NCBI GenBank assembly: GCA_011322445.1
Contig: DRMV01000052.1
Span: 1 to 48,665, forward strand
Source: Chloroflexota bacterium
GTDB lineage: Bacteria; Chloroflexota; Anaerolineae; Anaerolineales; DRMV01
Length of the DNA stretch: 48,665 bases
Reading direction: 5' to 3'
Within the stretch, counting starts at the first letter, position 1; each line of letters starts with the position of its first letter. Of this stretch, positions 1 through 34,459 are shown one piece after another. The notes beneath the pieces are model-generated. The model was given only the letters and a program-made list of their open reading frames with translations, had not been told where the DNA came from and searched no databases. The position numbers were made by a program, and so were the translations under genes.

Positions 1-45
1 ACCCACAGGTGGAAGATAAGAAGATGGTTATCTAAGTAGCAAGTC

Positions 46-1107: not shown

Positions 1108-1110
1108 TTC

Positions 1111-2121
1111 ATGATACGGCAACGGCTCCTTTTGTCTTTGTCCATTCTCCTGGTTGTGATTGGCTGCAGTCTGCCTATTGGCATCGATGTATCCGGTCCC
1201 CATCTGTCCCCTATTCCAAAACGAGATATCGTGTTTCAAGTTTACACTTCTTGGAAAGATGAGCGCTCAGGGGAACTGGGCTTTGTCAACCAGGACGGCT
1301 CCGGGAAAACAATAATTTCTCCCGCTCGAGAAGGGTACTACAAAGGGTATATTGTACGTGCCCCCTTCTTTATAAATGGGATCTTTGGTTTTTTGGTCAA
1401 TAATGTTCCTTATGTAAGGTATGGAGGGCTTTTAACTATGTTCTATCAAGGGGAAGTTTTGCCTTGCAATTTCACCTTGGCCTGGCAACCCACTCCAGTG
1501 GGAAACAATGGCCTTTTTATGGGGAAGTACCTCTGGGACAAAGATGGAGGCGTTGTGCTTTTTCGACCACTTGAGTCAGGATGCCCTTCGCAAAATCTCT
1601 GGAGCGCGGAAGAGATTCAAGAAATGAAAGTCATTCACATTACTGGTTTCCATACTCGCGAGGCTCTCTTGCTTACGGGACGACAAGCCTACGTTTGGGA
1701 TATAAGCGAACGCCGTTTTCAACACTTGGCTTGGTTGCCCAAAGGATGCGTTGGAGAGTTGAGCCCCGATGACCGACGTTTGGCTTGTCTCATCAAAAAG
1801 CCCTCTGAGAGTACATTTACTACGAATATACTTGTCCAAGTATGGGATATGGAAAACCACCAGATGCAACGTTATCATTTTATCCCAGCCGCGTTAATTC
1901 CAAATTACACTTATCCAATAAGCGTCTCTTGGTCACCAAACAGCGATGCCTTGGTTTATCATCGTTGTATCAAACCCAATATGGAAAACCCCCTCGCTTG
2001 TGAAGAAAAAGGCTACGATAATCTTGGTATCTACATTTGGGACTTGGAGACAAACGAAGAGCGCTTGGTAACGACGGGCGGCGTATTCCCTTACTGGATT
2101 AACTGGGGAAGTTCTCCCTAA
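1111..2121 (+). CDS. Lipoprotein with beta-propeller-like repeats, putative immunity protein
   Basis: A 336-residue protein with an N-terminal signal peptide and a lipobox-like Cys at about residue 19 (VVIGCS), so probably anchored on the outer face of the membrane. The C-terminal two thirds contain recurring blade-like motifs: LSPDDRRLACL, VWDMEN, SWSPNSDALVY and IYIWDLETNEERL. These resemble WD40/TolB-type propeller strands. The gene lies directly behind the C39-like tip (3-nt gap). Base composition is more AT-rich than the junction repeats, as is usual for shuffled cassettes. An immunity role is inferred from position alone; a stand-alone surface propeller protein is the alternative. Confidence 0.55.
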   Translation: MIRQRLLLSLSILLVVIGCSLPIGIDVSGPHLSPIPKRDIVFQVYTSWKDERSGELGFVNQDGSGKTIISPAREGYYKGYIVRAPFFINGIFGFLVNNVPYVRYGGLLTMFYQGEVLPCNFTLAWQPTPVGNNGLFMGKYLWDKDGGVVLFRPLESGCPSQNLWSAEEIQEMKVIHITGFHTREALLLTGRQAYVWDISERRFQHLAWLPKGCVGELSPDDRRLACLIKKPSESTFTTNILVQVWDMENHQMQRYHFIPAALIPNYTYPISVSWSPNSDALVYHRCIKPNMENPLACEEKGYDNLGIYIWDLETNEERLVTTGGVFPYWINWGSSP

Positions 2122-2355
2122 GAGAAAGGCTGGCCGGCTAAACGTTTCTTTCACGAGCAACTACCCAAGGTGCACGATGTGCCCACCGCGCCCGCGCCGC
2201 TGAATGGCGGTGCGGTGGTTGTGGACAACACAGAACAACGCACCACCTCGCCACAGCCGAAGAAGCCGACGACGGTCGCTGGGAAGTTCTTACCCTCGCC
2301 CCCAACGGCCAGTGGTCCAAAGATACCGGCGTGCTGACCAACGGCCTCCACACGC
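2122..2355 (+). pseudogene. Recombination scar: core-tail and Ig-like fragments in different frames
   Basis: No intact gene. From about 2188 one frame reads APAPLNGGAVVVDNTEQRTT, a near copy of the segment encoded at 2684-2748. At about 2250 the similarity stops and another frame reads EEADDGRWEVLTLAPNGQW and then TNGLHTLT, which looks like the end of an Ig/PKD-like domain. That frame meets the downstream frame (PGQYPIAITVWDSWG) at 2351-2358, where one extra C would restore continuity. I read this as the remains of a core gene spliced by recombination and then frameshifted. Confidence 0.6.
2188..2252 (+). repeat. Direct repeat DR1, left copy (APAPLNGG segment)
   Basis: About 65 bp that recurs 496 bp downstream at 2684-2748 with roughly two mismatches (gtggacaacac against gtggacgacac, cctcgcc against cctcacc). 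It encodes APAPLNGGAVVVD.TEQRTTSP. A long, near-identical direct repeat on either side of a different sequence is a substrate for homologous recombination and probably marks an old cassette exchange. Confidence 0.85.
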
Positions 2356-3805: not shown

Positions 3806-4584
3806 ATAAATGGCCAAATTACTTATGGGTGAAGCTAAGCTATATGCCCTACGGATTGATACTTGGAGGGCTATTGGTCGCTTTGGCTGCTCTATGGATA
3901 GTAGGTACTTGGCGCGTAGGGTATTTTTTGAATAAACGCTCAGAATGGTGCTGTACGTGGGTGCTGGGTATAGGGGGATGGTTAGTATTGACGGCTGGGA
4001 TATACTTTTTGTTTATTATAATAGATGGCGCTTTCCCTTACCCCCCTTCTCCCAAGCGTCCGGCGTTCACTTGCGACAACTTGGTACTGTCTCAAGAGGA
4101 AATACAACGGTTCCTCCCTAATTGGGATATCGTGTTTGGCTTTACTAGCACCGAGCATAATAGGGATTACTACGGCACAATCTGGCAGTGTTCACGTTTC
4201 TTCGCTAAGGATCAGGACAAAGTCGACTCTCTGGAACAAATTGAGGCCTTGCGGCGTGTAAAGCCTGTGATTGTGGTGACAATATATCGCTTTAGCGATA
4301 TTTTTGGCCCTCGAGTGCCTTGGTTAGCGCTAAAAAGCCCCGCTGACGAAGCACCGGAGTTGGAGCGTTCTTTTCATTCCACTTATGCTCGTGTATGGCG
4401 ACTAAGAAAGATTGAATCGGACTATGTCTTTGAGGCAGTTTACGATGAATTTTATCTTTTTATCGACTTTGAAACTCCCTTACATAGTAGTCCTTCAAGT
4501 CAACCCTTCACTTTGAAAGATATTTTGGATTTTGCACAGCGAGAAGATAGGAAAATTGGCGAATTTGTAGAACTGGATTTTTGA
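3802..4584 (+). CDS. Membrane-anchored putative immunity protein to the Ntox44-like tip
   Basis: A 260-residue protein whose ATG overlaps the stop of the upstream toxin gene (ATGA at 3802-3805), so the two are translationally coupled. Two hydrophobic helices occupy about residues 15-37 and 50-75 (GLILGGLLVALAALWIVG; GWLVLTAGIYFLFIII). A soluble domain of about 180 residues follows, with no family I recognise. The codons are visibly more AT-rich than the flanking core-tail DNA. Immunity is inferred from the coupling and from the same layout in the neighbouring cassettes. A membrane immunity protein for a predicted RNase tip is unusual and is a reason for caution about either assignment. Confidence 0.55.
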   Translation: MNKWPNYLWVKLSYMPYGLILGGLLVALAALWIVGTWRVGYFLNKRSEWCCTWVLGIGGWLVLTAGIYFLFIIIDGAFPYPPSPKRPAFTCDNLVLSQEEIQRFLPNWDIVFGFTSTEHNRDYYGTIWQCSRFFAKDQDKVDSLEQIEALRRVKPVIVVTIYRFSDIFGPRVPWLALKSPADEAPELERSFHSTYARVWRLRKIESDYVFEAVYDEFYLFIDFETPLHSSPSSQPFTLKDILDFAQREDRKIGEFVELDF

Positions 4585-4606
4585 TAGTATCCAGCTGTTT
4601 CTGTAA

Positions 4607-5982
4607 AAAGGGCAAAAGACGGCGCCTCCCGCGAGCGGGTCTGGCGCTGGGGTGCCCTCGCCCACGCCCACGGCGACGGCGGCGCCGCACACGGGCAGCA
4701 ACGCCCCGCCGCAGGCACCGGAAGCCCCGCGGCGGCCCTTGGGGCACCTGCCCCTGTGGGGCGGGGCGGCAGCGGCGTTTCTGGCAGCCTGGGCGGCCAG
4801 CCGACGCAAAGTGCAACCACGTCATATTGTGATTGCAGCCCTCACGGGAGGTCTTGTGGGGGCTTTGATAGGCGCGTTGGAGGGCGAGGCCTCAGAACTC
4901 TTTCGGGTTGCCGAGCACCCCCCCTCGTCGCTTTGCTGCGCCCTCGCAGGAGCTTGATGATCCCTATGTCGTGCCTTTTGTAGATGCCCGCGGTCGGTAT
5001 GGCTTCCAGCCGGTTTGGGTCTGTCCCGATGATTATGACCCTGCCTGCGCGGCCAATGATGTAGCCTTGGCCGAATTCCTAATTGGCACAGGATCGCACA
5101 AGCAGGAATACGGCGTTGTGTTCTCCGATGCGCCTGCACGGCCCTTTACATGGCAGGAAAAGGTGGTATTGATGACGGGCACCATTGATGTGGGCGAATA
5201 CCTGGAAGGGATCACAGGCGTGGATGGAGCCAAAGCCTTTCGAAGGCTTTATGGCGTATCGGCCGAGAACCCGCTGATTTATCACAAATGCAAACTTCCG
5301 CGAAAAGGAGACAACAAGAAAGAAGTGGATCCCTTCTGCCGCTTCGGTCAAGAAAGCATCACCACAGGCATGATTACCCAAAATTCGCATCGCATCGGCA
5401 TTGCTACCATGTGGCCGAGTTGGGAAGGGTCGGATTGGTTTCTCTTCACGCGAAACAATCTTGTGCATGAATTGGGCCATGCCTTGGACTGGCGCTTGGA
5501 CGATCCGCATGATCCCAAGGCCACAGGGCGCGACCTGTTGGACAAATGGGTTGGGCGGCAGAACAAACACCGTTCAACACCCCTGCAAAGAGGGAGAGCC
5601 CTCTTGTGAGCAGCGGTGGCCTTATGGACGTAGGAGATGTCTGCTTTCCGGAAAACTCTATCCCTACTGCGGTTTTGCCGCTGTGGGGCCGGAGAGCCCC
5701 ACTAAGCCAACCAGGCGGTACTGGCTTGCCTGGCAGCAGCATCCTGCGCCTACACCCGGAGAACTGTTCGCCGATATGTTCCTCAACGACGTGTATCAGG
5801 CCTGGCCGGATCCAAATGAAAACGAAATATCATGGCAGCGATCACAATTTATGAAACAAACAATTCATCCCCTTATTCGAAAAAGTATAGGACATCCAAG
5901 CCGTCCTGTTCCGGAAACCCACAAAAGAGAAAGCAGAGAGTTTCCTGTCTTACGATGCAAGCAGGAGGTGGTGCCAAAATGA
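4607..5982 (+). pseudogene. Frameshifted core-tail remnant fused to HELGH zinc metallopeptidase tip
   Basis: Three collinear frames make one product. 4607-4922 encodes a Pro/Thr linker, the PLWGGAAAAFLAAWAASRRK membrane helix and a second Gly/Ala-rich hydrophobic stretch. After a C7 run (4918-4924) the reading moves to the frame of 4908-5609, with the zinc motif HELGHALD (codons 5466-5489). After CCCC at 5580-5583 it moves again to the frame ending at 5982, with GELFADMFLNDVY, whose Glu or Asp would be the third zinc ligand. Removing one C at each run restores a single frame. This copy lacks the DQAASG junction. It is either a true pseudogene, a phase-variable gene, or carries homopolymer sequencing errors. 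Its stop overlaps the next ATG. Confidence 0.7.
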
Positions 5983-6893
5983 GGAAACAAACATTTTTGC
6001 GGTTTAGCGTTGTGGTCATACTGTTTTTGAGTTTGAGCGCATGCCAGGGGTCAACTCCCCGAGGAACAATGCCTATCCCAACGTCCCAGCCCACGTTCAC
6101 AGTCACACCCATGCCAAAGCCCACGGCCACCTTGGGCCCCTGGCCCACACGGCGGCCCATAGCCACCTCGACGCCCATACCGCTCTTCCCATTGGAGTAC
6201 GAGCATGTTCCTGTGACGCCGCTGTCGCCGGAAGCGGTGGCCCGTCGAGCCCGAGACCTGGCCTGTGAGCCGCCCTGTTGGTTCGGCCTGGAACCCGGTG
6301 TGAGCACCTTGCAAGACTTGCGGGATTTGTGGGAATCGTGGAGTAAGATCCGTTGGGGTTGGAATGAACAAAAAGAAGCTATTACCGGTCACTTCATCAA
6401 TCCAGCTTTCTACATGGCTTTTGAAGCTAACCGCCAAGGTCGGTTGGTATTTATGAGAATTGAACCTTTTGGGTTGCCGGAGTATTCTCCTTCAGTTTAT
6501 TTTCGGGACCTGGGCCAGCCACCTTGGACGGCTCTGTCGGCGGTGTGGAGTTATCCGAGCGAGGGCGAGCAATGGGCACCAAAGGACAGCTTTATTTCGG
6601 TTTCCCTATACTTGGGTTATCCCGAAAAATTCGTCGCCGCAGATTTATATATAGGGGATACGCCGGATTTAGGCCTAGAATTACCTCCCCGTTTGCAAGC
6701 GTGTATTCCCCACCCCAGGCCCTACATCACTTTCTTCGCTTTTCCAAAGGAAAACTTCACCGCTGCGTGGATTTGGCAATACCAAGATGAAGCAGATCCT
6801 CCAGCACGTTTTCTGACTTCCAGAGAAGAAATCTGGCAGCAGATTCTGGAGGAAAAGGACCCTTTTTGTATAACACTGGAATTTGAGGAATGA
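5979..6893 (+). CDS. Lipoprotein, putative immunity to the metallopeptidase tip
   Basis: Starts at the ATG at 5979, inside the stop of the metallopeptidase frame (ATGA) and 8 nt after a strong AGGAGGTG ribosome site. A longer open frame from 5832 exists but would lack this site. The 304-residue product begins MRKQTFLRF and has a lipobox LSLSAC (Cys at about residue 22), a Pro/Thr linker, and a globular domain starting near EYEHVPVTPLSPEAVARRA that I do not recognise. As a lipoprotein it should sit on the outer membrane face, where it could meet an incoming metallopeptidase. Function is inferred from position. Confidence 0.6.
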   Translation: MRKQTFLRFSVVVILFLSLSACQGSTPRGTMPIPTSQPTFTVTPMPKPTATLGPWPTRRPIATSTPIPLFPLEYEHVPVTPLSPEAVARRARDLACEPPCWFGLEPGVSTLQDLRDLWESWSKIRWGWNEQKEAITGHFINPAFYMAFEANRQGRLVFMRIEPFGLPEYSPSVYFRDLGQPPWTALSAVWSYPSEGEQWAPKDSFISVSLYLGYPEKFVAADLYIGDTPDLGLELPPRLQACIPHPRPYITFFAFPKENFTAAWIWQYQDEADPPARFLTSREEIWQQILEEKDPFCITLEFEE

Positions 6894-6929
6894 ACCCGAC
6901 AAAGCAAGGTGTGAATTTTTTTCTGGTCA

Positions 6930-7430
6930 GCCCTGGCCCAACAAGAGCGCGCTGAAAGGGGGCAGCCGTCCGAGGCCGAAGCAGGCGAAGGTGCAGGGTT
7001 GGTGTAAGTTGAGGCGGCCCGGCTGGCCGCCCAGCGCGCCCGCGCGGCCGCGCTCATCGCCGCGGTGGCGCTTGACCAGGCCCGCCGGCGGCTCACCCAC
7101 CCCGCCCCGGCCGAAGAAACCGACGACGAAGCACCACCCCTGCCGCGCGAAACCGCCCTGCTCGTTGACGGCGAAGTGCCCTTAGACCAAGCCGCCTCGG
7201 GCCGCACGCCGCAGCCGGGGCCGCCCAGGCCCGATGGCTCTTGCACCCCGCATGGGTTGCGGGATGGGTATGCCCACTCGCAACCGGTGGACATCGCCTT
7301 GTGGAAACAAGCCGATTATGGGCAGATGGGTCACGCACGGGAAGTAACGGAGCAATGGCAAGGGGCTAAGGAAGCCAGTGAGGTTTTTGGTGCAGAAAGA
7401 ACATTCGCGTTGCCCCAAGAAAAGCATTGA
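6930..7430 (+). pseudogene. Degenerate core-tail plus junction (fourth cassette)
   Basis: One frame reads ALAQQERAERGQPSEAEAGE, a TAA stop (7005-7007), then VEAARLAAQRARAAALIAAV, an equivalent of the Ala/Arg coiled coil at 2840-2950. The junction (LVDGEVPLDQAASG, TPHGLRDGYAHSQ, WKQADYGQM) follows, with about 34 further residues before a stop at 7428-7430. The membrane helix seen in the other copies is absent. A GTG at 7065 could open a 121-residue frame, but the in-frame stop and the lost upstream part point to a decayed cassette. From 7431 to 7614 no frame can be supported. Confidence 0.65.
7150..7328 (+). repeat. Toxin junction repeat, copy C
   Basis: Third junction copy, nearly identical to copy B from the DQAASG codons to DYGQM; a 26-nt block beginning gaccaagccgcctcgg is shared exactly. 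Similarity stops just after gggcagatgg, the same place as in copy B, which supports a defined exchange point. Confidence 0.85.
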
Positions 7431-7614
7431 AGCAATTCATTAAACGTGAAAGTGCGCACAACAGTAGAGCACTATATATGGAAGCATTTTTCCCCAAAAA
7501 TTCCTCACTGTCCTCTAGACGTCCAGGAATAGGCAGAGGTCTTGGAGTACTCTTTACGGCACTCCTCACAAAAGTTGCTGTTTCCCATGCCTGTATTCAA
7601 AGCCTACTTACAAT

Positions 7615-7896
7615 GTGCTGAATGGCGTGGGCACAGTATTGGTAGCAACGGGAATTGGCGGGGAAGCCGGGGCAGTCCTTTTGGGTATAAATGGAGCATT
7701 ACAACTTGCCCAAGTAGCTCGCCTTGTTAAAAAGAAAAAATCTGTGGATCGGGGATGTTTTCGTTACTTATTGTTGGTTAACTTTTTAGATGTGATACCG
7801 GGGTTAGGAGTCTTATCAGGATTGTTCAATGCCATTCACTCATGCATTGGGGTATGGGCGTTTCGGTACGTACATAAACTGTGTGAATATCCGTGA
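7615..7896 (+). CDS. Hydrophobic fragment, possible remains of the fourth tip
   Basis: An open frame of 93 residues with long hydrophobic stretches (VLVATGIGGEAGAVLLGI and FLDVIPGLGVLSGLFNAI) around a basic patch VKKKKSVDRG. The similarity-free frame extends upstream of the ATG without a clear start, so this may be the 3' part of a frameshifted tip rather than a separate gene. Membrane-active tips are known in polymorphic toxins, but I see no recognisable family. A run of small membrane-protein genes follows. Confidence 0.35.
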   Translation: MLNGVGTVLVATGIGGEAGAVLLGINGALQLAQVARLVKKKKSVDRGCFRYLLLVNFLDVIPGLGVLSGLFNAIHSCIGVWAFRYVHKLCEYP

Positions 7897-7909
7897 AAGG
7901 TGTACAACG

Positions 7910-8197
7910 ATGTTGCTGACCCTAATAACCGTGTGCCATTTGATAAAATGTGCTCGAGACACAGAGCGGTCCACACGCATAGTCAAGGTGTCTTTTTGGT
8001 TAATGGCAGAAGTGTTAATGTTTTCGTGGATAGGTACCGTTGTATTTATTCTCTCTTTGAGAGAATGCCTTTTCCTAACATCTTCGTTACAATGGTGGGG
8101 GGGAATCACGATATTGGCGAGTATGGGACAATGGGGGTTGTACGTTTTAGAGAGGTTTTATCGGAGATTCTTAGAAAGAAAGGGAAAGAAGCAATGA
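7910..8197 (+). CDS. Small membrane protein
   Basis: A 95-residue protein starting MLLTLITVCHLIK after a GAAAGGTG ribosome site near 7893; I prefer it to the longer frame opening at 7829. It has two probable membrane helices, around residues 29-50 and 55-75, and a basic C-terminus (RFLERKGKK). Its stop overlaps the next ATG (8194). No family recognised. Its place behind a tip remnant suggests an immunity role by analogy with the other cassettes. Confidence 0.45.
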   Translation: MLLTLITVCHLIKCARDTERSTRIVKVSFWLMAEVLMFSWIGTVVFILSLRECLFLTSSLQWWGGITILASMGQWGLYVLERFYRRFLERKGKKQ

Positions 8198-8529
8198 AGA
8201 ACTGGCAAGTTTTTCTCGTGGGTGAGGCAGCCATTGACGCTTTGATAGGGTGGTATTTTCTTCTCTGGCGTCGTGGTCGGGGATTGTGTTTTTGGCCCAT
8301 GTTAGCAAGTTTTGGGTTGGTAGGTTGGGGAGTTTTCCTGTTGGCCGCCTTTTTGACCCATCCGAGGTGTATATTAAGCTGGAAATTGTGGCTCACTACG
8401 GGAGGGGTTGCCTGGTTTTCCGGGCCCACACTGGTGCTTTGGTGGCTTTACGGGGCGCATCGCTGGCGCTCAGGAGGTCTCATCGCCCAGATTTTTCAAA
8501 AAATTTTTGGAAATTGTGGACGACTTTGA
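8194..8529 (+). CDS. Small membrane protein
   Basis: A 111-residue protein beginning MKNWQVFLVGEAAIDAL and coupled to the previous gene by ATGA. It has about three hydrophobic segments: IGWYFLLWRRGR, FWPMLASFGLVGWGVFLLAA and LTTGGVAWFSGPTLVLWW. No family recognised. The open frame extends back to 7900, but the coupled ATG is the better start. Confidence 0.45.
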   Translation: MKNWQVFLVGEAAIDALIGWYFLLWRRGRGLCFWPMLASFGLVGWGVFLLAAFLTHPRCILSWKLWLTTGGVAWFSGPTLVLWWLYGAHRWRSGGLIAQIFQKIFGNCGRL

Positions 8530-8532
8530 GAT

Positions 8533-8775
8533 ATGCTTCTTGTCATTACGGATTGTTTTTGCATGTTTGTCTCGGTGGCGGTGGGTGTGGCGGTCGCGAC
8601 CGTGGTAGCCGGGGTGGTAGCAGTGTTCGCTTCCACATTTCCTTTTCTTGCATTGCCCACGGTTGCTATTGGCCTCACTACGTTGGTGGGTATAGGAATG
8701 AGGGCACTCATAGAAGCCACTGGCTTTCCGGGATGGGCTAAAGCTCAGCTCAATCGATTGTTTTCAGGATATTGA
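8533..8775 (+). CDS. Small hydrophobic protein, Val/Ala-rich
   Basis: An 80-residue protein with two membrane segments (VSVAVGVAVATVVAGVVAVF and LPTVAIGLTTLVGIGM) and a short polar tail. It begins 3 nt after the previous stop and belongs to the same run of small membrane genes. No family recognised. Confidence 0.4.
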   Translation: MLLVITDCFCMFVSVAVGVAVATVVAGVVAVFASTFPFLALPTVAIGLTTLVGIGMRALIEATGFPGWAKAQLNRLFSGY

Positions 8776-8783
8776 GGAGGTAG

Positions 8784-9499
8784 GTGATGCGCAGACCCTC
8801 TTATGTGTCTTGGCCTCTTTGGAAAACCTTGTCCCTGGGGTTGTTTGTGGGTGGCTCAATTAGTTTGATGAGTTGGTTATTCAAATTCCTTTGGGAAGCC
8901 GGGCGCTATGCGGGCTTCAATAGCACTCCCCCACATTCCCTCCTTTTACTGTGTGGGATTTGCTCGCAGGGAGTGGGTTCTTGGTGTATCCTTTGTGGAA
9001 TCGCTTCGCTTGGCAACTCAAGCGAAAAAATGCAGGCTTCTACCGCTGGTTTGGAGATCTATTAGGCGGTGTCTACCTTTTCATGGGGGGCACAGGGGGA
9101 GTGCTTTTTGGAATGTATGCAGCCCGACAAAGAGAATATAAATTGGCGCTGTCGGTAATGGGCATTCTGGCTTTGGTGGTGATGATGACCGTTCTGTTAG
9201 TAGCCGAGCAGATCTGGCACTATGTCCCTGGGCGAAAGGAGCGGTTGGATGGATTTGGTTGGTATTATTGGAGCATGGATAGGCATGTGGTTGCGGCGCA
9301 GGCGGCATTGGGAACAAGAGACCAAGGGGGTCAGAATGGGCTGGTTTCGCAAGACGGCAAAAGATTACCTGGAAGAAGGCACCCAGCACTCCATGCGCGG
9401 GGAGTATGGGCGCGCCATCAAGGCTCTGAGCAAAGCGCTGGAAGTCGATCCCCAAAACGCGGTGGCTTACATGCATCGCGGGATTGCATTTCTGAATAG
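8784..9499 (+). pseudogene. Frameshifted multi-pass membrane protein
   Basis: Begins MRRPSYVSWPLWKTLSLGLF (ATG at 8787 behind GAGGAGG). The first frame runs to about 8940 and then turns into unlikely sequence. A different frame takes over smoothly with LLFTVWDLLAGSGFLVYPLW, then GGVYLFMGGTGGVLFGMYAA and LALSVMGILALVVMMTVLL. Four or so membrane helices result. The second frame stays open to 9499, but its tail overlaps the next gene and is not convincing. A single shift near 8940-8950 explains the break. Confidence 0.45.
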
Positions 9500-9614
9500 C
9501 GGCCAGGCGGAAAAGGCCCTTCAGGATTTTGGGGCAAGCCTGCGTTTGGAGCAGAATGCGCTATGTTACTACAATGCTCATGGTAGTGCCAGCTTTCCAA
9601 TCCTTTCGAGGTAG
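9249..9614 (+). CDS. Membrane-anchored TPR protein, truncated
   Basis: ATG at 9249, seven bases after AAGGAG (9236-9241), gives a 121-residue product: one membrane helix (LVGIIGAWIGMWLRRRR), a short linker, then TPR helices (AKDYLEEGTQHSMRGEYGRA, NAVAYMHRGIAFLNSGQAEK). The third repeat breaks off at ALCYYNAHG and a stop follows, so the 3' part was probably lost at a rearrangement end. An internal ATG at 9336 would give a soluble version. Confidence 0.5.
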   Translation: MDLVGIIGAWIGMWLRRRRHWEQETKGVRMGWFRKTAKDYLEEGTQHSMRGEYGRAIKALSKALEVDPQNAVAYMHRGIAFLNSGQAEKALQDFGASLRLEQNALCYYNAHGSASFPILSR

Positions 9615-10197: not shown

Positions 10198-11451
10198 GTG
10201 AACTGGTGGCGAGACAAAATGTTCCCGCGTTTTGCGCTGTACGGCTTTTTGAAGAATCTCCGCTTTTTCGATCCCTTTCTCATTTTGTTTTTGCGTGATG
10301 CGGGGCTGAGTTTTACCCTCATTGGCACGCTCTATGCGATCCGTGATACGGCTACCTATTTGCTGGAAGTGCCAACCGGCGTGTTTGCCGATGCCATTGG
10401 CCGCCGGAAGGCCATGCTGATGGCCTTTGGCGGCTATTTGGTGGCGTTTGGCGCTTTCTATGTTGGGCACGATTTTTGGTGGTTTGCCCTGGCGATGGTG
10501 CTGTTTGCTGTCGGTGAAGCCTTCCGCTCGGGCACGCATAAGGCTTTGATTCTCGAATACCTCAAGCAGAATAATTTGACGCATTTGAAAGTGGCCTACT
10601 ACGGCCGGACGCGCTCGGCTTCTCAGTTTGGTTCGGCGATCAATGCTTTGATTGCTGCGGCGTTGGCGTTTTACACCGGCAGCTATCGCATTATGTTCCT
10701 CGCGGCGGCGGTGCCGTATGTGCTGGATTTCATCAATCTGGCCACTTATCCCCCTGAGCTGGATGGCGAACTCTCGCGGGTGGAATGGCACGCTATGGGC
10801 GATCAGGCGAAGCAGACGCTGGCGGCTTTCAAAAGCATGTTTACCGACCGCAGTGCTTGGAAGGCCATTCTCAACAGTGCGAGTTTCATGGCGTTGTTCA
10901 AGGCCAGCAAAGACTACCTGCAGCCCATTTTGGAGCAATGGGCACTGGCGTTGCCCATTTTCCTGGCCTACACGGGCAAACAGCGCAGCGCGGTGGTCAT
11001 TGGTGTGGTGTACTTTTTGATTTACCAGAGCACCAGTTATGCTGCGCGCCATGCTGATCGCTTCAGCCAGCGGTTTCGTGATCTGGAACGGGCAATTAAT
11101 CTCTCGTTCCTCGGCGGCGTGGGCTTGCTTTTCTTCGCCGGGTTGATGACCTGGGTCGGTTGGGATGTGGTGGCGGTGATTTCCTTCCTGGGTTTTTACA
11201 TTTTGCACAACCTGCGCCGCCCGATGAATGTGGCTTACATCAGCGATCAAATCGAAAGCCGGGTGATGGCTTCCGGCCTTTCGGTCGAGTCGGTCGTCCG
11301 CACGATTTTGGCTTCTGGCATGGCACTGTTGCTGGGCTGGTGGGCCGATATGTTCGGTGTGGGGCTGGCTTTGGCTTTGCTGGCGCTGACGCTGGCTGTG
11401 GCATTCCCCTTTGTGCAGGTGAGCGCTGAGAAGAAAGCCCCTGCTGATTAG
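10198..11451 (+). CDS. Major facilitator superfamily transporter
   Basis: A 417-residue inner-membrane transporter with about 12 hydrophobic segments. It uses a GTG start at 10198, eight bases after GGAGGT. The MFS motif A appears after helix 2 as GVFADAIGRRKAM. Substrate cannot be told from sequence; similar proteins are annotated as drug or metabolite exporters. The gene stands alone, with a strong shared terminator between it and the converging protease operon. Confidence 0.85.
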   Translation: MNWWRDKMFPRFALYGFLKNLRFFDPFLILFLRDAGLSFTLIGTLYAIRDTATYLLEVPTGVFADAIGRRKAMLMAFGGYLVAFGAFYVGHDFWWFALAMVLFAVGEAFRSGTHKALILEYLKQNNLTHLKVAYYGRTRSASQFGSAINALIAAALAFYTGSYRIMFLAAAVPYVLDFINLATYPPELDGELSRVEWHAMGDQAKQTLAAFKSMFTDRSAWKAILNSASFMALFKASKDYLQPILEQWALALPIFLAYTGKQRSAVVIGVVYFLIYQSTSYAARHADRFSQRFRDLERAINLSFLGGVGLLFFAGLMTWVGWDVVAVISFLGFYILHNLRRPMNVAYISDQIESRVMASGLSVESVVRTILASGMALLLGWWADMFGVGLALALLALTLAVAFPFVQVSAEKKAPAD

Positions 11452-11507: not shown

Positions 11508-14165
11508 TTACCGCGAAACGCTGACCTTGAGCACTTTGCCGTGGGGGTCCATTGCGACGCGCATGAAATGCCGGTGCGTCATGCCGCCGACGGCAATGCG
11601 TTTGCTGACGACGGCTACTTTGCAGGCCACGCGCTTGTTCCCGCGCTGGCCTTTGGCGGCGGTTTCCACCGTTTCTTCGGCCAGCAGCATGTCGATGCCT
11701 TCGTGCCCCGGCAGGTAAGCCTCGACCATTGCTTTGATGCGTTTGCTCATGCGGGGCGGCAAGGTCTCGGAGACGGTGGCGCGCTCTTCGGCCAGCGGCG
11801 CTTTGAGCGGCTCTTTGGGGCGTAGAACGCCTTTGCCCCACAGGCGTTGCCTTCCAAAGGGGTGATAGAGGGGGTCACCGTAGAGCACGAAAGAGATCAG
11901 GGTTTTTTGGTCTTCACCATCCAGGAACCCAAAGCGTTGGTGCATTTGGCGGGCGTAAAGATATTTGGCTTGCCGCAGGGCTTCCCCGGCAGGAAGGCCG
12001 AGTTTGAGGCGTTGCCAGAAGAGCGCCCCCAGCAGGTCGGCAGCCGAAAGCGGGGTGGTCACTGCGCCGTAGGCCGTGACGGTAGACCCTACGAAGGCCT
12101 GGCTGCCCGCGTAGAGGAAGCGCAGGCACATGGCGTTGTTGGGGGTTTTGTCTTTCAGATAGGCGCCGTAGCAGGCTTCAGAAAAGACCACTCGCGGGGC
12201 GTGTTCCCTGGGTGGAAGGTCTTCAGGACGCAGCGCTACGGGGTAATCGGGGGCGCCGGGCAAAGCGCGCGTGGGGTCCCGTTGGCCGTACCAGGGGGCT
12301 GCGTCGGCCAGGCCGTGCAGGTTGAAGTAGGCCAGCGTGGTGCGCGGCAGCACGCCCAGGGCTTCGGTGTGCAGCGGCGGTGAGGCCAACAGGGTGCGCG
12401 GCGCGCCAATTTCTTTGAACACGGCACGGGCGGCTTTTTCCCACACTTCGGCGGTATAGCCCAGGCTGGCCAGGCGGTGGCGGCGCAGGAAGGGCAGGTG
12501 TGCGCGCAGAGCCTGCCACCAGCGCCGGTACCACGCTACGGCGCGCTGACGGTTGCGGTGCTCGGCGGTCATGCGGCGCAAAGCCCCCAACAACAGCGTG
12601 GCGTCGCCATCGGCGCTGCCCGGCAGCCGCCCTACCGGCCACGTGGGCGCGAGGTAGTTTTCGTCGATAGCGCCATAAGGGTTGTCGGAAGGTACAATAT
12701 CGTCTTCGTCTTCCAGGGGGTTAGGCAGATGATGGAAGGGCACGACCTCCGGGCCTCCGACGATGAGTAGCGCGCCAATCATGCTGCCTTTTCGCCCCAG
12801 TGCCACGTCAAGCGAGGCCAGTTGCTTTTTTAGCGCCCAGGGGTCATCGGGGGTTACGGGTTTGATGCCGTGTTCGTGGGCCGAGGCGGCGTCATCGGCC
12901 AGGAGCACCGTGGCTTCCCAGTCGGGCGCGGTGCCGACGGCCTTAGCCAACGCGTGCATGTGGCGCAGGATGATTTTGGCGGTGTCTTGGCCGTAGTGCT
13001 TTTCCAGCCCGCTGCGGGTGCTGAAAATGACATACACGGGGAAGCGCCCTTCGGTGTGAACGAGGTGAGCCATTTTCAACCGGCGGGCAGCCTGGGAAAG
13101 CACACGCTCGGCAGCCCGGGCGCTGCGATGGGAAGCCGCGGGGGAAACTGTGCTCGCCGGGCGGGGCGTGCCGGTGCCGCGCGTGGTGCGTGCCGACCGG
13201 TTGGAGGGCTCAGCCGACGTAGCCGGCTGTGCCGGGGCAGGAGCCTTGCTGGGCGCAGGGCTGGCCTGGCGCGGTGCGGGCGCGGCGGCTTCCTGCGCGG
13301 GCTGCGGCTTCTCGGTAGCCTTGGTGGCAGTCGAAGCAGCCTGCGGCGCGCTGTGGGAACGGGAAGGCTTGCTCTCCGGCAGGCGATTGCGCCCCAGCGC
13401 CGAGGCGACGGCAGCAGGCAGAGGAATATCCAGCGGCGCGGCCAGGTTTTTGGGCCAGAGCGCCCAATAAGGGTGGTGTTCCCCCAGCAGGCGGCGCAGC
13501 ACCTGCCCTGCCGGGTCGGCGGCTGCAACCGCGTGCAGCATGGCAACGCTTTCGGTTTCCTGGCCGCTTTCGGCCAATTGATGGGCCAAAATCAGCCGGA
13601 AGGCCAGCACGTCGGGCCAACGCTGGTGATAGGTGCGCGCCAGGTGCAGCGTGGCTGCCCAGTCGTTCTGTGCCCATACCAGCCGCAAGTGCGCTACGGC
13701 CAGCAAGGGAATATGCCCGTTGCCCGGTAGCGCAGGGAAAAGGGCCGCCTGGGCGGCTTCCAGGTCGTGTTGTTGCAAGGCGGTGTAAGCCTGTTGGAGG
13801 GCAATGCTCCACGCGGGCGGCGTGGCATTGGTAGGAGGATGCCCTAACGCGGCCAGCGCGCCGATAATTTCGGTGCGAGTTTCGGATGGCGCGGTGAGCG
13901 GCAAAGCCCGCAAACGCACCGCGTGGGCGGCGGCGTCTTCAGGGTCGGTCAGGGCTACCGCCGAAGCAAGTTGGAAAGCGCGCCCGCGGTCGCCTAACCC
14001 CAACAGGGCTTCGGCTTGCAGGCATTGCACTTCCAGGTCGTGGGGAATGGTGTGAAGGTAGCGGTCGGCGGCCTGGCGGACGAAATCCCAGGCGTGCACG
14101 TCGATGCCGGTGCGTAACAGGATGAGCCATTGTTGGCGTGGGAGAGGGTTGGGGAAGTCGCTCAT
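11508..14165 (-). CDS. TPR plus C25/caspase-like cysteine protease
   Basis: An 885-residue protein. Residues 1-230 are TPR-like helices, 260-345 an Ala/Pro/Ser linker, about 370-765 a protease of the gingipain-C25/CHAT (caspase-fold) type, and 765-885 a basic C-terminal domain. The probable catalytic dyad is His617 (YFNLHG) and Cys665 (VVFSEACYGA). Typical C25 landmarks are present: SDNPYG with GRLPG near 493-516, and FVGSTVTAYG with GEALRQAKY near 691-736. No signal peptide, so the enzyme is probably cytoplasmic. It is the last gene of a minus-strand operon behind a giant TPR protein (71-nt gap). TPR-linked caspase-fold proteases often act on cue from a partner; the partner and substrate here are unknown. 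Confidence 0.75.
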   Translation of the reverse strand: MSDFPNPLPRQQWLILLRTGIDVHAWDFVRQAADRYLHTIPHDLEVQCLQAEALLGLGDRGRAFQLASAVALTDPEDAAAHAVRLRALPLTAPSETRTEIIGALAALGHPPTNATPPAWSIALQQAYTALQQHDLEAAQAALFPALPGNGHIPLLAVAHLRLVWAQNDWAATLHLARTYHQRWPDVLAFRLILAHQLAESGQETESVAMLHAVAAADPAGQVLRRLLGEHHPYWALWPKNLAAPLDIPLPAAVASALGRNRLPESKPSRSHSAPQAASTATKATEKPQPAQEAAAPAPRQASPAPSKAPAPAQPATSAEPSNRSARTTRGTGTPRPASTVSPAASHRSARAAERVLSQAARRLKMAHLVHTEGRFPVYVIFSTRSGLEKHYGQDTAKIILRHMHALAKAVGTAPDWEATVLLADDAASAHEHGIKPVTPDDPWALKKQLASLDVALGRKGSMIGALLIVGGPEVVPFHHLPNPLEDEDDIVPSDNPYGAIDENYLAPTWPVGRLPGSADGDATLLLGALRRMTAEHRNRQRAVAWYRRWWQALRAHLPFLRRHRLASLGYTAEVWEKAARAVFKEIGAPRTLLASPPLHTEALGVLPRTTLAYFNLHGLADAAPWYGQRDPTRALPGAPDYPVALRPEDLPPREHAPRVVFSEACYGAYLKDKTPNNAMCLRFLYAGSQAFVGSTVTAYGAVTTPLSAADLLGALFWQRLKLGLPAGEALRQAKYLYARQMHQRFGFLDGEDQKTLISFVLYGDPLYHPFGRQRLWGKGVLRPKEPLKAPLAEERATVSETLPPRMSKRIKAMVEAYLPGHEGIDMLLAEETVETAAKGQRGNKRVACKVAVVSKRIAVGGMTHRHFMRVAMDPHGKVLKVSVSR

Positions 14166-14236
14166 AAAAGCCTCGGAGGGTGATGAATTGACGATTGACG
14201 ATTAGCGTTTTGCGGCTTTAGCCATCCAGAATATTC

Positions 14237-17200
14237 TTAGGAAGGGATGAGGTTGATCACCGACACGGTTGCCAGCTGGCGGCGGATGCGGAAATCGCCG
14301 GGGGCGAGCTGGGCGGCTTTGCGGAACATGTCTTCCGCGTTTTCGTAGTCGCGGACGGCTTTGTAGATCATGCCGGCGTAGTAATAAGGGCGGCTGTCTT
14401 GTGGGTCGAGACGCTGGGCGGCCTCTAAGGTTTGCAGGGCAGCAGCGTATTCGCGGCGGTCGCTTTGCACTTGCGCCAGTTTGAGCAACGCTTCTATGTG
14501 CTTGGGCGCCAGCCGGACGGCTTCGCTGAAATGATAGAGTGCCTGGTCCAATTGCCCTGCCTCTTTGGCAAGGTTGCCCAACAGCATGTGCAGCCGGACG
14601 CGGCTTTCGGGGGGCAGGGTGTCCATGCCACGCAGGGCTTTGCGACCGGCTGCCCGGGCGGCATCCAACTGGCGGCTGGCAGCCAGGGCTTCGGCCAGCC
14701 CCAGCCACAGGGTGGGCACATTGGGGCGGGAAGCCAGCAGCCCGCGCCAGATTTCCACTGCTGCCTTGGGGCCGCCGATCTGGCGGTGCAGTTCGGCGCG
14801 CAGGATGTTGAGTTCCATATCGTCGGGCGCGTGCGGTAGCGTTTCTTCGAGAAGGCGCAGGGCTTCCTCGGCTTCGCCCAATGCCAGCAGGGCATTGACG
14901 GCGTAGCGCGTGGCTTCGGGGTCGAAGGGGTGGCTTTGCAGCCAGCGGCGGGCGTGCTGGAGGGCGATTTCGGGGGCTTGCTGAGCCAGCGCGATCTGAA
15001 TGCGGAGCATCACCGGTTCGGCGGCGTGGCGCTCGGCGCGGGCGGCGGTTTCGGCGTGCTGGGCAGCCTCGTCCAGCCGACCCAGCCGGAAGAGCACCTG
15101 GGCCAGCAGTAAATGCGGCCGCGCGTGTTCGGGGTGGTGGCGCAAGGCCGTGGTCAGCGCGCTGTGGGCGGCTTCCAGGTCGCCACGTGCCATTTCGGCC
15201 TCGGCCAACGCCAGGTGGTGGGACAGGTGCTGCGGTTCCAGGCGGACGGCTTCTTGCAGGTGATGGAGGGCTTGTTCCTCGTGGCGCAGGTCGGTGTGGA
15301 TGGCGGCAGCCAGGGCGTGCCAGCAGGGTTCATCGGGCGCGAGGCGCAGTGCGGCGGTGATGGCCTCTTCCGCAGTGGGCAGATCGCTCAGGCGGTTGGC
15401 AAGGCGGGCGACCAAAAAATGGGCTGCAGCCCATTGGGGGCGCTGGTCGCGCGCGTGTTGGGCGGCTTGCAGCGCGATTTGCAGGTCGCCGGTGGGCAGG
15501 CTTTCCAGCAGCAAGGCGTGGTGAAATTGCACCATCGGGTCGTTCTGGAAAGCCGGAAGCGCGTTTTGCATGGGCATGCCGCGGCGACGCAGGGCGTCTA
15601 ACCCCGCGGCGAGGTCGCTGGGGGCGGGTGGCGTTTGCAAGAGCAGCACGTTCAATCGCCCCTGGAACGCGGCCATGCCGCGCGCATACCAGCGGTGCAG
15701 CGCCGGGTGTTGGTGGTAGCCTTCGGGGGTAGCCTCGGCACCCAACCGCTGGGCTGCGGTTTCGAGGGCGGTTTGCCATGCCTCTTGTGCCGTGGCGCCC
15801 AAGACCTGGGCGTCGGGCAGGGCGGCCACGGCCTCGACCGCCCGGCAGCGGTGGTAACTCTCGGCTTGCAGCGTGAGCAAGCGTGCTTTGCGCAGCGCGG
15901 CTGCCGGGCTGTGGGGGCAGGCCTCGGTGACATGGTCGGTGAAAAGGTGGGCAATGTGCCAGCGCCGCAGTTCGGCCGCGGCATCGGCAATGGCTGCCCA
16001 GGCCGTCAACGTTGCCGTGGGCGGCAGGGCTTCGCCGGTAGGGGCGGGAGCGTGCTCGACGGCAGCATCCAGCAAGTGTTGCCCTTCGGCGAGATCGACG
16101 CGCCGGGCTGTGAGGCGCGCCTGGAGCGCCAGCAGGTGCGGTGATTCGGGCGCGTATTCCAGCCCTTGGGCGATGGCTTCGGCTGCTGCCACTTCGGCCC
16201 CCTGATCTAAGGCGGCTTCGGCCTGCGCTGCCAGCCACTCGGCCAGGTGCTCGGCGGTGGCAACGGTGGGAGAGGCTTGTAACAGGTGCTGAGCGCGCTC
16301 GGCTTGTAACAGCACCCGGGCCAGCGCGAGGGCTTCCAGCCGCAGGGGCAGATCTTCGGGGTGCAGCACCAGGGCTTCTTCGGCGGCTTGCAGGGCTTTG
16401 GGCAGGTTGCCGATGGCGCGCCATAGCCCTACGGCGGCTTTCAGCAGCGAGAATGCCCGTGGATAGGCTTCCAGCGCGCGGCTCAGGGCCTGGGCTGCAC
16501 GCTGAGGGCGCCCTTGGGCCAGATCATTTTGTACAATGGCGAGATGAAGCGCGATGCGGGCTTCTGTTTCGCCTTCGTCGGCTTCGGGGGCGTGCTGGCC
16601 TTCGGTTTGCTTAAGGGCGTGCAGCGCGGCCTGGGTGGCGGCTTCAAAGGCATCTTGATCTTGCAGCGCGCGCACGAGCGCCAGATGCCACTGGGCGGGA
16701 GCGTCTTTGTCGTGGGTGGCGCGTTGCAGGCAGCGCACCGCGGCTTCGGTTTGCCCCAGCGCCAGCAGTTGCGTGCCTGCTTCGGCACACCATGCTGGTG
16801 TGGTGTGGTCGAGGTCTTGCAAAAAGGGCTGAAGTGCGGATATGGCTTCCTGGGCTTGTCCCAGGGCATGGTGAATTTTCGCCAGTAGCAGGGCAATTTC
16901 GGGGTTATGAGGTTGGAGGGCAGTGTTGCTTTCGAGGACGTCGGCGGCGCGAGGGGCTTCCCCGAGGTCTAACAGCAGGCGAGCGTACCAGTGGGCGATT
17001 TCCGGGTCGTGGCGGCTGAGCCGCAGGGCGTCGGAACCGGCGTCGATAGCCTGATCGCGGAAATTCAGTTGGCGGTAGGCTTCGGCCTGCAGTTGCCGCA
17101 GGCGGGGGGTGGGGCCGTGTTGGAGGGCGTCTTCTATGGCCGCCAGGCCGATTTCTGCCCGCCGAAGCCGCAGCGCCGTTTCTGCCAACCCAATGGCGAT

Positions 17201-19399
17201 AGCCCGTTGCCGATGGGGATGCTCGCCGGGCAGCGCCTGCAAGGCCTGGCGGTAGGCTTCCAGTGCTTCGTCAAGATTTTGTTGCTGGCGATGTGCCTGG
17301 GCGAGGGCTGTCAGGATGTCGGCGCGTAACAGCGCGTCTTCGGGTACGGTGGTTTCCTGGGGCAGGCGGCTAAGCGCGAGTTGCAAGGCGTGGGCAGCGC
17401 GCTCGGGGTCGGTTTGTGCGGCCAGGAGGGCCTGGGCGTAGAGGTAAAGGTCGTGCGGCGTGGCATCGGGCTGCTGCGAAAAGGGCGCCAGCAGGGCCGC
17501 GGCGGCGTGCGGGTCGTCGGCGGCCAGATGTGCCTGGGCCAGCAAGCGCGCGGTTTTGGGCGTGGGCGTGTCGCGGTGGTAGCGGTGCAACAGGTCGCGG
17601 GCCGCGGTGGGTTCACCAAGCGCCAGGTAGGTGGCGGCTAAGGTGGCGGCAATGTCGGCGCGTTGAGGGGCCAGATGATGGGCGGTTTCCAGGACGGTGC
17701 GGGCGTGGCCGGGGCGGTTTTGGGACAGCAGGTATTGCCCCAGGCGGTAATGAATTTCGGCGTCGTGAGGGAGGGCGTGGGTGGCCGTTTGGAGCACGTC
17801 CAGTACGGCGGCTTCTCCCTCGGTTTGGGCTACCACGTCAGCCAGCGCGAGGTAGGGACTGGCGTCGGTGGGGTGGTGAGCAATGGCCTCTTCCAGGTGG
17901 CGGCGGGCGGCCTCGAGATGGCCTTCTTGGGCCAGCACTTTCCCCACAATGGTCAGCGCCTGAGGGTGTTCGGGCGCGTGTTCCAGCACAGTTTCGGCAG
18001 CGCGACGGGCTTCTTCGGGCTGGTCGGCGCGCAGGGCGAGGCTGGCCAGCGCAAGGTGGTCTTCAGGGGTGGCTTCGGGGTCTTCGGCCAGCAGGCGGTG
18101 GTTTTGGAGGGCTTCGTGAAGCAGGCCGGCGGCTTCCTGTGCTTCGGCCAGGCGGCGAAGGCGGGCTGTGGTGGGGGCAAGCCGATGGGCGAGGAAGGCC
18201 GCTTCGGCGGCTTCGGCCGGGTGCTGCGCTTGAAGGGCGGTCTCGGCAGCAAGGTCGAGCGCCTGCACGTCGGCGGGATGGGCGGCAGCCAGGCGCAAGG
18301 CGGCCCGCGCGGCGGCCGCGGATTCTCCCAGAGCCGTTAAGGTTTCGGCCAGGGTGTGCAGCAGGTCGGCGGGCAGGTCGCTGAGGTGGGCCAGAGCCTC
18401 TAAGGCATAGGCGCGGGCGGTTTCGGGGTGACTGTTTTGCAGCAGGTGCGCGGCGGCGACCTGCAAGGCCGGGTGGTGCGGCGTTTCGGGAAGCAGCGCA
18501 CGGGCTTCGTCGGTGTGGCGGGCACGGTGGCGTGCAAGGGCACGGCGCGCCAGCACCTCGGGGTGGGAAGGCAGGTGAGTTGCGGCCTGTTCCCACGCTG
18601 TGAGCGCTGTGGGTAAATCGCCCTGGGAGGCAGCCAGTTGAGCCTGATGGGTGGCTAACAGGCCGCTGAGGCGGCGCAGGTTTTCCCATGCGTCGGCGAG
18701 GGCGGCTTGTGCCTCGTCTGGCTGGCCTGTGGCGGCGGCGTGAAGGGCGCGCTGCCATCCGTCGTAAGGGGCTGGAAGGGGCTGAGTGGTGATTTGCGCG
18801 GCTACGGCGCGGGCCAGTGCGGGACGGCAGCGTTGGAGATCCCAGGCCGTGGACAGGCGGGGTTCGGGCGGGAGCCGCCGCAGGAATTCAGCCAGGCGCA
18901 CGGCTTGAATTTCCGGTGGCGTAGGCTGGCACAGCAAGGCGTGCAGCGCCAGGGCAGGGCCGTGAGGCAAAGCAGCGATGGCTTCGAGCAACGCGGGGGC
19001 GTCGTCGGCCCACGAAAGCGCACAGGCCAGCGGCGTGCGCCAGGCCGTGGACGGGCCTTCCAGAAATTCGGCCAGGCCTTTCCAACTGCCATTATCCTTG
19101 CGGAAGGCCTGCAGCGTCAGCGCCAGGCGGGCGGCGTCGGCCAGGGTCCTCGGCGGCAGGGGAGGGTTTTCGGAGGGGGTGTTCTCTTGTTGGGGAGCGT
19201 GTTCCAGCGCCAACCGCGCCAGGGCGCCTGGATGCCAGGCGGTAGGCGTGGCTCCCAGGCTTTCCAACGCGTGTTCCCCCACGCCGCTGTGGAGCGCTTC
19301 CCACACTAAGGGGTCGTGCATCAAGGCGGCGACGACCCAGGGGAAGGCATCGGGCGGCAGTTGTTGTTGGAGGGTGAAAAGAAAGGGCTTGGTTGGCAT
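14237..19399 (-). CDS. Giant tetratricopeptide-repeat protein
   Basis: A 1720-residue protein made almost wholly of TPR-type helical pairs from about residue 220 to the end. Repeats with the consensus A.LYxLGxxxxxxG..eeAl..l..al.l.P recur many times, for example YYYAGMIYKAVRDYENAEDM near the C-terminus. The N-terminal about 200 residues are helical but less regular. No signal peptide or membrane helix. It begins 33 nt after the 2-TM gene and ends 71 nt before the protease gene, so the three are probably co-transcribed. The likely role is a scaffold or sensor that binds peptides or regulates the protease. Length is far above usual TPR proteins. Confidence 0.85.
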   Translation of the reverse strand: MPTKPFLFTLQQQLPPDAFPWVVAALMHDPLVWEALHSGVGEHALESLGATPTAWHPGALARLALEHAPQQENTPSENPPLPPRTLADAARLALTLQAFRKDNGSWKGLAEFLEGPSTAWRTPLACALSWADDAPALLEAIAALPHGPALALHALLCQPTPPEIQAVRLAEFLRRLPPEPRLSTAWDLQRCRPALARAVAAQITTQPLPAPYDGWQRALHAAATGQPDEAQAALADAWENLRRLSGLLATHQAQLAASQGDLPTALTAWEQAATHLPSHPEVLARRALARHRARHTDEARALLPETPHHPALQVAAAHLLQNSHPETARAYALEALAHLSDLPADLLHTLAETLTALGESAAAARAALRLAAAHPADVQALDLAAETALQAQHPAEAAEAAFLAHRLAPTTARLRRLAEAQEAAGLLHEALQNHRLLAEDPEATPEDHLALASLALRADQPEEARRAAETVLEHAPEHPQALTIVGKVLAQEGHLEAARRHLEEAIAHHPTDASPYLALADVVAQTEGEAAVLDVLQTATHALPHDAEIHYRLGQYLLSQNRPGHARTVLETAHHLAPQRADIAATLAATYLALGEPTAARDLLHRYHRDTPTPKTARLLAQAHLAADDPHAAAALLAPFSQQPDATPHDLYLYAQALLAAQTDPERAAHALQLALSRLPQETTVPEDALLRADILTALAQAHRQQQNLDEALEAYRQALQALPGEHPHRQRAIAIGLAETALRLRRAEIGLAAIEDALQHGPTPRLRQLQAEAYRQLNFRDQAIDAGSDALRLSRHDPEIAHWYARLLLDLGEAPRAADVLESNTALQPHNPEIALLLAKIHHALGQAQEAISALQPFLQDLDHTTPAWCAEAGTQLLALGQTEAAVRCLQRATHDKDAPAQWHLALVRALQDQDAFEAATQAALHALKQTEGQHAPEADEGETEARIALHLAIVQNDLAQGRPQRAAQALSRALEAYPRAFSLLKAAVGLWRAIGNLPKALQAAEEALVLHPEDLPLRLEALALARVLLQAERAQHLLQASPTVATAEHLAEWLAAQAEAALDQGAEVAAAEAIAQGLEYAPESPHLLALQARLTARRVDLAEGQHLLDAAVEHAPAPTGEALPPTATLTAWAAIADAAAELRRWHIAHLFTDHVTEACPHSPAAALRKARLLTLQAESYHRCRAVEAVAALPDAQVLGATAQEAWQTALETAAQRLGAEATPEGYHQHPALHRWYARGMAAFQGRLNVLLLQTPPAPSDLAAGLDALRRRGMPMQNALPAFQNDPMVQFHHALLLESLPTGDLQIALQAAQHARDQRPQWAAAHFLVARLANRLSDLPTAEEAITAALRLAPDEPCWHALAAAIHTDLRHEEQALHHLQEAVRLEPQHLSHHLALAEAEMARGDLEAAHSALTTALRHHPEHARPHLLLAQVLFRLGRLDEAAQHAETAARAERHAAEPVMLRIQIALAQQAPEIALQHARRWLQSHPFDPEATRYAVNALLALGEAEEALRLLEETLPHAPDDMELNILRAELHRQIGGPKAAVEIWRGLLASRPNVPTLWLGLAEALAASRQLDAARAAGRKALRGMDTLPPESRVRLHMLLGNLAKEAGQLDQALYHFSEAVRLAPKHIEALLKLAQVQSDRREYAAALQTLEAAQRLDPQDSRPYYYAGMIYKAVRDYENAEDMFRKAAQLAPGDFRIRRQLATVSVINLIPS

Positions 19400-19432
19400 G
19401 GGAAACCTCGCAGGATGCGGACGCGAAGCGGG

Positions 19433-19759
19433 TTAGTGAAGGGGCAAAATATACTGGTAAGGGAAGTACATCAGCGCCAGACCGAGCACGATGAGAAAGA
19501 TGCCGACGCCAGCGGTGGTTTGCACCAGCCTGGTGAGGGCGCTCACCAGCGCCGAGGCGTTGCCGACCAGGCCAGAGGCATCTTCGACCAGGCCCTTTTG
19601 GGCCAGACGGGCAGTGTGCGCTGCCACGCGCTGAATGTCGCGGTTCATCGCGCGGGCAACGAGCACAAACACGCCCATCACGAAGGTGGCCATGCCGAGC
19701 AGGAACACCAGACCACCGAGCCACATGCGCAGATCTTGCGGTGTAAGAGAGGTGTGCAT
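19433..19759 (-). CDS. Two-helix membrane protein, first gene of the TPR-protease operon
   Basis: A 108-residue protein from the ATG at 19757-19759, behind AAGGAG; the open frame continues upstream but without a site. Two membrane helices (about 12-36, LGGLVFLLGMATFVMGVFVL; about 82-103, GIFLIVLGLALMYFPYQY) flank a helical loop with NRDIQRVAAHTARLAQKG. No known family. It could tether the TPR protein to the membrane; that is inferred only from operon position. Confidence 0.6.
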   Translation of the reverse strand: MHTSLTPQDLRMWLGGLVFLLGMATFVMGVFVLVARAMNRDIQRVAAHTARLAQKGLVEDASGLVGNASALVSALTRLVQTTAGVGIFLIVLGLALMYFPYQYILPLH

Positions 19760-19865
19760 GACGAACTCCTTGAGATGGAATGACAGGCGCTCTCGAAGGT
19801 GCAAGAGGTGTGCCAGCGGCAGCGGCGGCCCCGCGCGTTGGAGGGGCTGCGGCGCTGAACCGCGG

Positions 19866-19882: not shown

Positions 19883-19964
19883 GGGCATGTGGCGGAATTG
19901 GCAGACGCGACAGACTTAGGATCTGTTGCCGCGAGGCGTGTGGGTTCGAGTCCCACCATGCCCA
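19883..19964 (+). tRNA. tRNA-Leu (anticodon UAG)
   Basis: Acceptor stem gggcatg (19883-19889) pairs with catgccc (19957-19963), followed by discriminator A. Anticodon stem acaga/tctgt encloses the loop cttagga, with anticodon TAG at 19917-19919. The T-arm contains ggttcgagtccc, and a long variable arm (class II) fits leucine. CCA is not encoded. Confidence 0.92.
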
Positions 19965-34407: not shown

Positions 34408-34459
34408 CCGCTGCTTTTCGCAATGCTCAGACCCGACCAAAACCTAACAAGGAGGTTCT

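Follow-up and report, generated by a model that had tools for sequence, protein, structure and literature searches.

What does a bacterium of the Anaerolineales do with a caspase-fold protease that is encoded after a giant TPR protein and a small membrane protein? The question is raised by three genes in a stretch of 48,665 nucleotides (contig DRMV01000052.1 of assembly GCA_011322445.1, from a Chloroflexota bacterium), which we call the window, and which is part of a 2.63-Mb genome in 53 contigs. Its nearest named relatives are MAGs of the Anaerolineales. An initial annotation, made from the sequence alone, likened the trio to the TPR-CHAT systems of defence and cell death, and did not recognise the combination with a membrane partner. 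That impression of novelty agrees with our literature search, which returned no description of such a system; this is not proof that none exists.

All three reading frames are intact and lie on the minus strand exactly where the initial annotation had placed them, with intergenic gaps of 33 and 71 nt (Table 1).

Table 1. Features of the three-gene operon, in coordinates of the window.
Feature	Position	Strand	Basis
Sigma-54 (-24/-12) promoter motif TGGCACACCTCTTGCA, ~40 nt before the 2TM start codon	19800..19815	-	near-consensus match
Ribosome binding site AAGGAG of the 2TM gene	19766..19771	-	read from sequence
2TM membrane protein, 108 aa	19433..19759	-	ORF, hydropathy, family alignment
Giant TPR protein, 1720 aa, presumed scaffold	14237..19399	-	ORF, TPR families; same cluster in 73/80 named loci
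TPR-like + C25-like protease, 885 aa	11508..14165	-	ORF, relatives
Protease N-terminal TPR-like region, aa 1-255	13401..14165	-	weak TPR_19, conserved columns
Ala/Pro/Ser-rich linker, aa 255-360	13086..13403	-	composition
Gingipain-fold catalytic domain (predicted), ~aa 372-775	11841..13052	-	predicted model, RgpB/Kgp fold match
Catalytic His617 codon	12315..12317	-	invariance in relatives
Catalytic Cys665 codon	12171..12173	-	invariance in relatives
Protease C-terminal domain, ~aa 796-885	11511..11780	-	homologous to free 75-90-aa protein of second-FtsZ operon

By hydropathy, the 2TM protein has two hydrophobic segments (residues ~13-37 and 78-104), and the alignment of its family (A4) contains five invariant residues: G29, L71, G84, F88 and L89. 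TPR matches extend along the entire 1720-residue protein (Pfam TPR_19, E 2e-48). Upstream of the trio, on the opposite strand, is a tRNA-Leu gene (19883-19964), and downstream is a convergent MFS-like gene (10198-11451). Elsewhere in the window, positions 1-9500 hold a polymorphic-toxin-like array, with a C39-like peptidase (82-1107), an Ntox44-domain protein (2204-3805) and repeated segments at 48-159, 2989-3100 and 7142-7253; positions 33874-35812 encode a NapC/NirT-type cytochrome and then a multihaem cytochrome c, two proteins that resemble a reductase pair for nitrite or hydroxylamine.

The arrangement 2TM, giant TPR (~1700-2200 aa), protease recurs with its orientation kept, both in about 15 families of the order and elsewhere in the phylum, and hence it is not due to chance. 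The giant TPR gene is present in 73 of 80 named loci, all of which are titled Chloroflexota or one of its subgroups; one genome (G054) carries the 2TM and protease genes with no TPR gene between them. Thus the relatives, in which the genes keep co-occurring, bear out the proposal that the three form a unit. The protease is found, in single copy, in 43 of 61 relatives, and these represent 30 of the order's 36 genera; of 400 genomes sampled across the phylum, 33 have it. G020, G058 and probably G004 look protease-negative, but as their contigs break off at the 2TM gene, an assembly gap is likelier than a true absence. Named isolates of Anaerolinea, Levilinea, Bellilinea, Thermanaerothrix and Ornatilinea, all in culture, carry the trio. 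The protease tree tracks family taxonomy, and a 100/99 branch sets the order apart; therefore inheritance has been mainly vertical. The trio is thus ancient, passed on mainly by vertical descent, and present almost throughout the order.

The relatives also place the trio in a larger module; the link to division that we develop below, which lies outside the coordinates that the initial annotation had considered, was reached through these relatives and through promoters. Many genomes have, next to the trio, rpoN, an NtrB-like PAS kinase, an NtrC-like activator, a protein of 420-450 aa, a second FtsZ and a protein of 75-90 aa. At one locus (L042) nine genes follow each other in a single stretch, in the order RpoN, NtrB, NtrC, 2TM, TPR, protease, GH-A-fold protein, FtsZ2, small protein; the NtrB/NtrC-like regulators stand beside the trio in 30-32 of the 80 named loci. 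In the genome of the window itself the module is split into separate operons, with rpoN-ntrB-ntrC in one place (L185) and a 423-aa protein, the second FtsZ and the small protein in another (L152). The canonical ftsZ of this genome is elsewhere (L153), accompanied, by inspection, by ftsA, ftsQ-like, ddl and murC genes. The NtrC-like protein (L185:2698-3861) and its relatives comprise receiver, AAA+ and lid domains and end after the lid, and the DNA-binding (HTH) domain is absent from all 30 full-length copies in the cluster. An activator of this kind should act on the sigma-54 polymerase from solution.

Among genomes at least 90% complete, 31 have both the protease and the second FtsZ, 8 have neither, and none is mixed; the counts for the protease and the GH-A-fold protein are identical (31, 8 and 0). 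These counts are not phylogenetically independent, as there are about three clear absence clades (families f12 and f6, and genera g2 and g3 of family f1). RpoN is missing in most of the module-negative genomes; two of them (G016 and G017) keep rpoN without the module, possibly as a remnant left by an earlier loss. A 100/100 branch divides the second FtsZ from the canonical FtsZ. The T7-loop Asp promotes GTP hydrolysis in E. coli FtsZ, and this Asp is changed in most second copies, which read NVDFAH where canonical copies read NLDFADV or NVDFADV; the FtsZ2 of our genome keeps the catalytic Asp (NRDFND). We rejected the second FtsZ as a universal partner of the trio: module-bearing genomes outside the order have one or two FtsZ matches, each of which scores as canonical, and none of the FtsZ2 type was seen. 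The link with the second FtsZ is therefore specific to the order.

The two proteins encoded with the second FtsZ can be characterised in part. The 423-aa protein is predicted to form a GH-A-type barrel (Z 21-22 to GH39 enzymes and PslG). We doubt that it is an active glycosidase, as its family has no invariant Glu and, by inspection, the strand ends where one is expected do not carry it; the protein may be a relative without catalytic function. The small protein matches the C-terminal domain of the protease in profile comparison (hhalign probability 97.3%, E 1.9e-11, as compared with less than 1% for 20 shuffled profiles), and on this sequence evidence it is to be regarded as a free version of that domain. 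A regulatory role for it would be a guess.

The promoter of the trio provides a second route to its function. The sigma-54 motif before the 2TM gene is the only strict match in the window, where 0.18 are expected. Across the order, a site precedes 41 of 79 distinct 2TM genes under the strict pattern and 52 of 79 under the relaxed one, nearly always 50-90 bp upstream, as compared with 0 of 79 for a reversed-pattern control and 2 of 314 for other genes in the same loci. Outside the order, the site is lacking in 7 of 8 cases tested and no FtsZ2 relative accompanies the protease; the trio as such therefore includes neither. All of these promoter calls are motif matches.

The same motif identifies other genes. 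In the genome of the window there are 14 strict sites, versus 2 for the control, including one before rpoN(-ntrB-ntrC) and one before ftsL-ftsI (contig C48 of genome G000; L186:5451-5466, with relatives at L191-L225). The operon of the 423-aa GH-A gene, FtsZ2 and the small protein has an upstream site with one mismatch that keeps the GG-N10-GC core. Further genes behind strict sites (L173, L171 and L174), including one for a membrane protein after a topA-like gene, are possible members of the regulon. The site before ftsL, a gene that we label by its position before the FtsI transpeptidase gene and by its short membrane-protein pattern, in the absence of a Pfam match, is present in strict form in 12 of 21 module-positive versus 0 of 8 module-negative genomes. 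Moreover, the module-positive dcw stretches (454 kb) hold 14 strict sites, of which 12 fall before ftsL. Random segments score 48 of 4000. Core division genes are not commonly known to be under sigma-54 control.

These promoters could, on the other hand, reflect a broad sigma-54 response of the stress or nitrogen type. The protease would then perform general processing and its link to division would be incidental, for example as part of slowing growth during starvation. The NtrB/NtrC-like regulators that adjoin the trio would suit such a response, and strict sites in the genome of the window also precede genes unrelated to the module. However, the set of sites is small, with rpoN, ftsL and the trio among its members, and the protease and the second FtsZ are strictly coupled in presence and absence. 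We consider a broad response unlikely.

It remains to ask what kind of protease the trio encodes. The catalytic domain of the window protein has no match in single-sequence searches of Pfam, NCBIfam, PADLOC or PDB sequences, and so its family placement was obtained from alignment and fold; likewise, a search of the genome contigs with a single protein query gave no match, and an alignment query found relatives. Peptidase_C25 (PF01364) is matched by 27 of 38 relatives (best 1e-17), though not by the window protein, and the CHAT family of Pfam is matched weakly by 11 of 38 (best 2.7e-4). An AlphaFold2 model of residues 362-885, computed from the alignment, has pLDDT 88 and pTM 0.91. Compared with solved structures, this model is closest to the gingipains RgpB (Z 28.7, 2.9 A, 310 aligned residues) and Kgp (Z 25.2), with weaker matches to separase (Z 10-14), DdvA (13) and TPR-CHAT (10-13). 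The protease domain is thus predicted to have a gingipain (C25-like) fold, and in the model this fold is closer to gingipain than to TPR-CHAT.

The reading of this gene as a caspase-fold protease with an intact dyad agrees with the model and with conservation: His617 and Cys665 are invariant in 38 of 38 relatives and in all 110 members of the order that have sequence at those positions. The description as TPR plus C25-like protease agrees with the predicted fold in its C25-like part; for the TPR part the window protein gives no more than a weak match (E 0.065), although some relatives give TPR matches. Outside the order, 11 of 14 protease homologues keep both residues. In the three exceptions (L159, L163 and L165), which come from a single family, the Cys is gone, and one of them lacks the His too; these homologues adjoin a GH-A-fold gene and have no adjacent 2TM or giant TPR gene.

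The analogy to triggered defence was the reading that we considered first. It holds that phage or stress activates a TPR-coupled caspase-fold protease, which kills the cell, and it draws on the caspase-hemoglobinase fold, the TPR partner, the membrane protein and the fact that separase and TPR-CHAT also match the protease fold. Indeed, the TPR-CHAT protease of Craspase (Csx29) resembles ours in joining TPR to a caspase-fold domain. But Craspase belongs to type III-E CRISPR (gRAMP/Cas7-11), whereas the trio is of a different subfamily and has no CRISPR genes recognised nearby: no Cas gene recurs in the 80 named and about 40 further loci, whose recurrent neighbours were identified from representatives. 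Instead, the neighbours are housekeeping genes, namely those for AlaRS, L25, SmpB, histidine ammonia-lyase and trigger factor. PADLOC gives no match among 38 protease domains and only generic TPR, PrimPol-TPR and weak 2TM matches for the three window proteins, and a search of viral contigs and viral structures yielded no relative. The single-copy, taxonomy-tracking inheritance of the protease and the promoter type that the trio has in common with division genes also argue against defence. We therefore dropped this reading as very improbable: the trio is a real and unusual unit, but its analogy to defence systems is not supported.

The likeness to gingipains is strong in the catalytic domain, where the same two-subdomain fold is matched at Z 25-29 over 310-320 residues together with the His-Cys dyad, but other features differ. 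The window protease lacks a signal peptide and a secretion tail, and it has instead a TPR-like N-terminus, a Pro-rich linker, a C-terminal domain of its own and operon partners. A role in membrane or envelope maturation, in which the protease would process exported proteins as do C25-type proteases of secretion systems, might be suggested by the secreted gingipains as closest fold, by the 2TM partner and by the relatedness in fold of the GH-A-fold protein to the Psl hydrolase PslG, yet we give it little credence, since by inspection neither the protease (N-terminus MSDFPNPLPRQQW, which has no hydrophobic signal core) nor the giant TPR protein has a signal peptide, and no secretion genes are recognised in the neighbourhoods of the trio, so that ordinary secretion, which the initial annotation had named as a competing role, finds no support either.

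Both eukaryotes (separase) and cyanobacteria (HetF) use a caspase-fold protease with a platform of helical repeats at division. Separase (C50), like the trio, combines a giant platform of such repeats with a caspase-fold protease at the C-terminal end (fold Z 10-14), and it acts at a division step; but it is eukaryotic and carries repeats and protease in one chain, whereas the giant repeat protein of the trio is a separate gene and the fold match is weaker than that to gingipain. HetF of Anabaena is described as a CHAT-TM-TPR divisome component that acts at septal peptidoglycan synthesis (PMC8406250). HetF and the trio have in common a caspase fold, TPR and a membrane segment, and HetF is linked to division (PMC8406250); the link of the trio to division rests on shared promoter type and co-occurrence. 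The two differ in that HetF is one protein and the trio is three, and in that the caspase-fold domain is of the CHAT subfamily in HetF and of the gingipain subfamily in the trio, and the part of the HetF report available to us makes no mention of sigma-54 control or of a second FtsZ (PMC8406250). By analogy, HetF may be taken as the nearest functional precedent, and separase as the nearest architectural one.

We consider it somewhat probable, therefore, that the trio is a protease module, anchored in the membrane and under sigma-54 control, which regulates septation, with a role like that of HetF and a layout like that of separase. The proposal draws upon what can be read from sequence, that is, the genes, the dyad, their conservation, the promoter motifs, the shared promoter type and the co-occurrence, and upon a predicted protease fold. 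Under this proposal, the NtrB-like PAS histidine kinase and the NtrC-like activator would turn on sigma-54 RNA polymerase, which would transcribe rpoN, ftsL-ftsI, the trio and the operon of the GH-A-fold protein, FtsZ2 and the free C-terminal domain. The gingipain-fold cysteine protease would be cytoplasmic, its activity organised by the giant TPR solenoid, with the 2TM protein as membrane tether; these two partners would hold it at the membrane, probably at the septum. We infer proteolysis by a three-protein complex at that site, whose substrate may be a division or envelope protein, such that cleavage would license or time septation, in the manner of HetF in Anabaena and separase in eukaryotes.

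More tentatively, and at somewhat less than even chances in our judgement, the Anaerolineales may possess an undescribed system of division control: a sigma-54 regulon under an activator without a DNA-binding domain. Its members would be ftsL-ftsI, a second FtsZ whose catalytic loop is altered, and a protease complex of gingipain/separase type that is anchored in the membrane and whose cleavage of a substrate would license septation. If this is true, core division genes of these bacteria would present an unusual case of sigma-54 control, and the evolution and logic of protease-gated division would become testable through a bacterial version that is linked genetically to an FtsZ paralogue and to the regulation of ftsL-ftsI.
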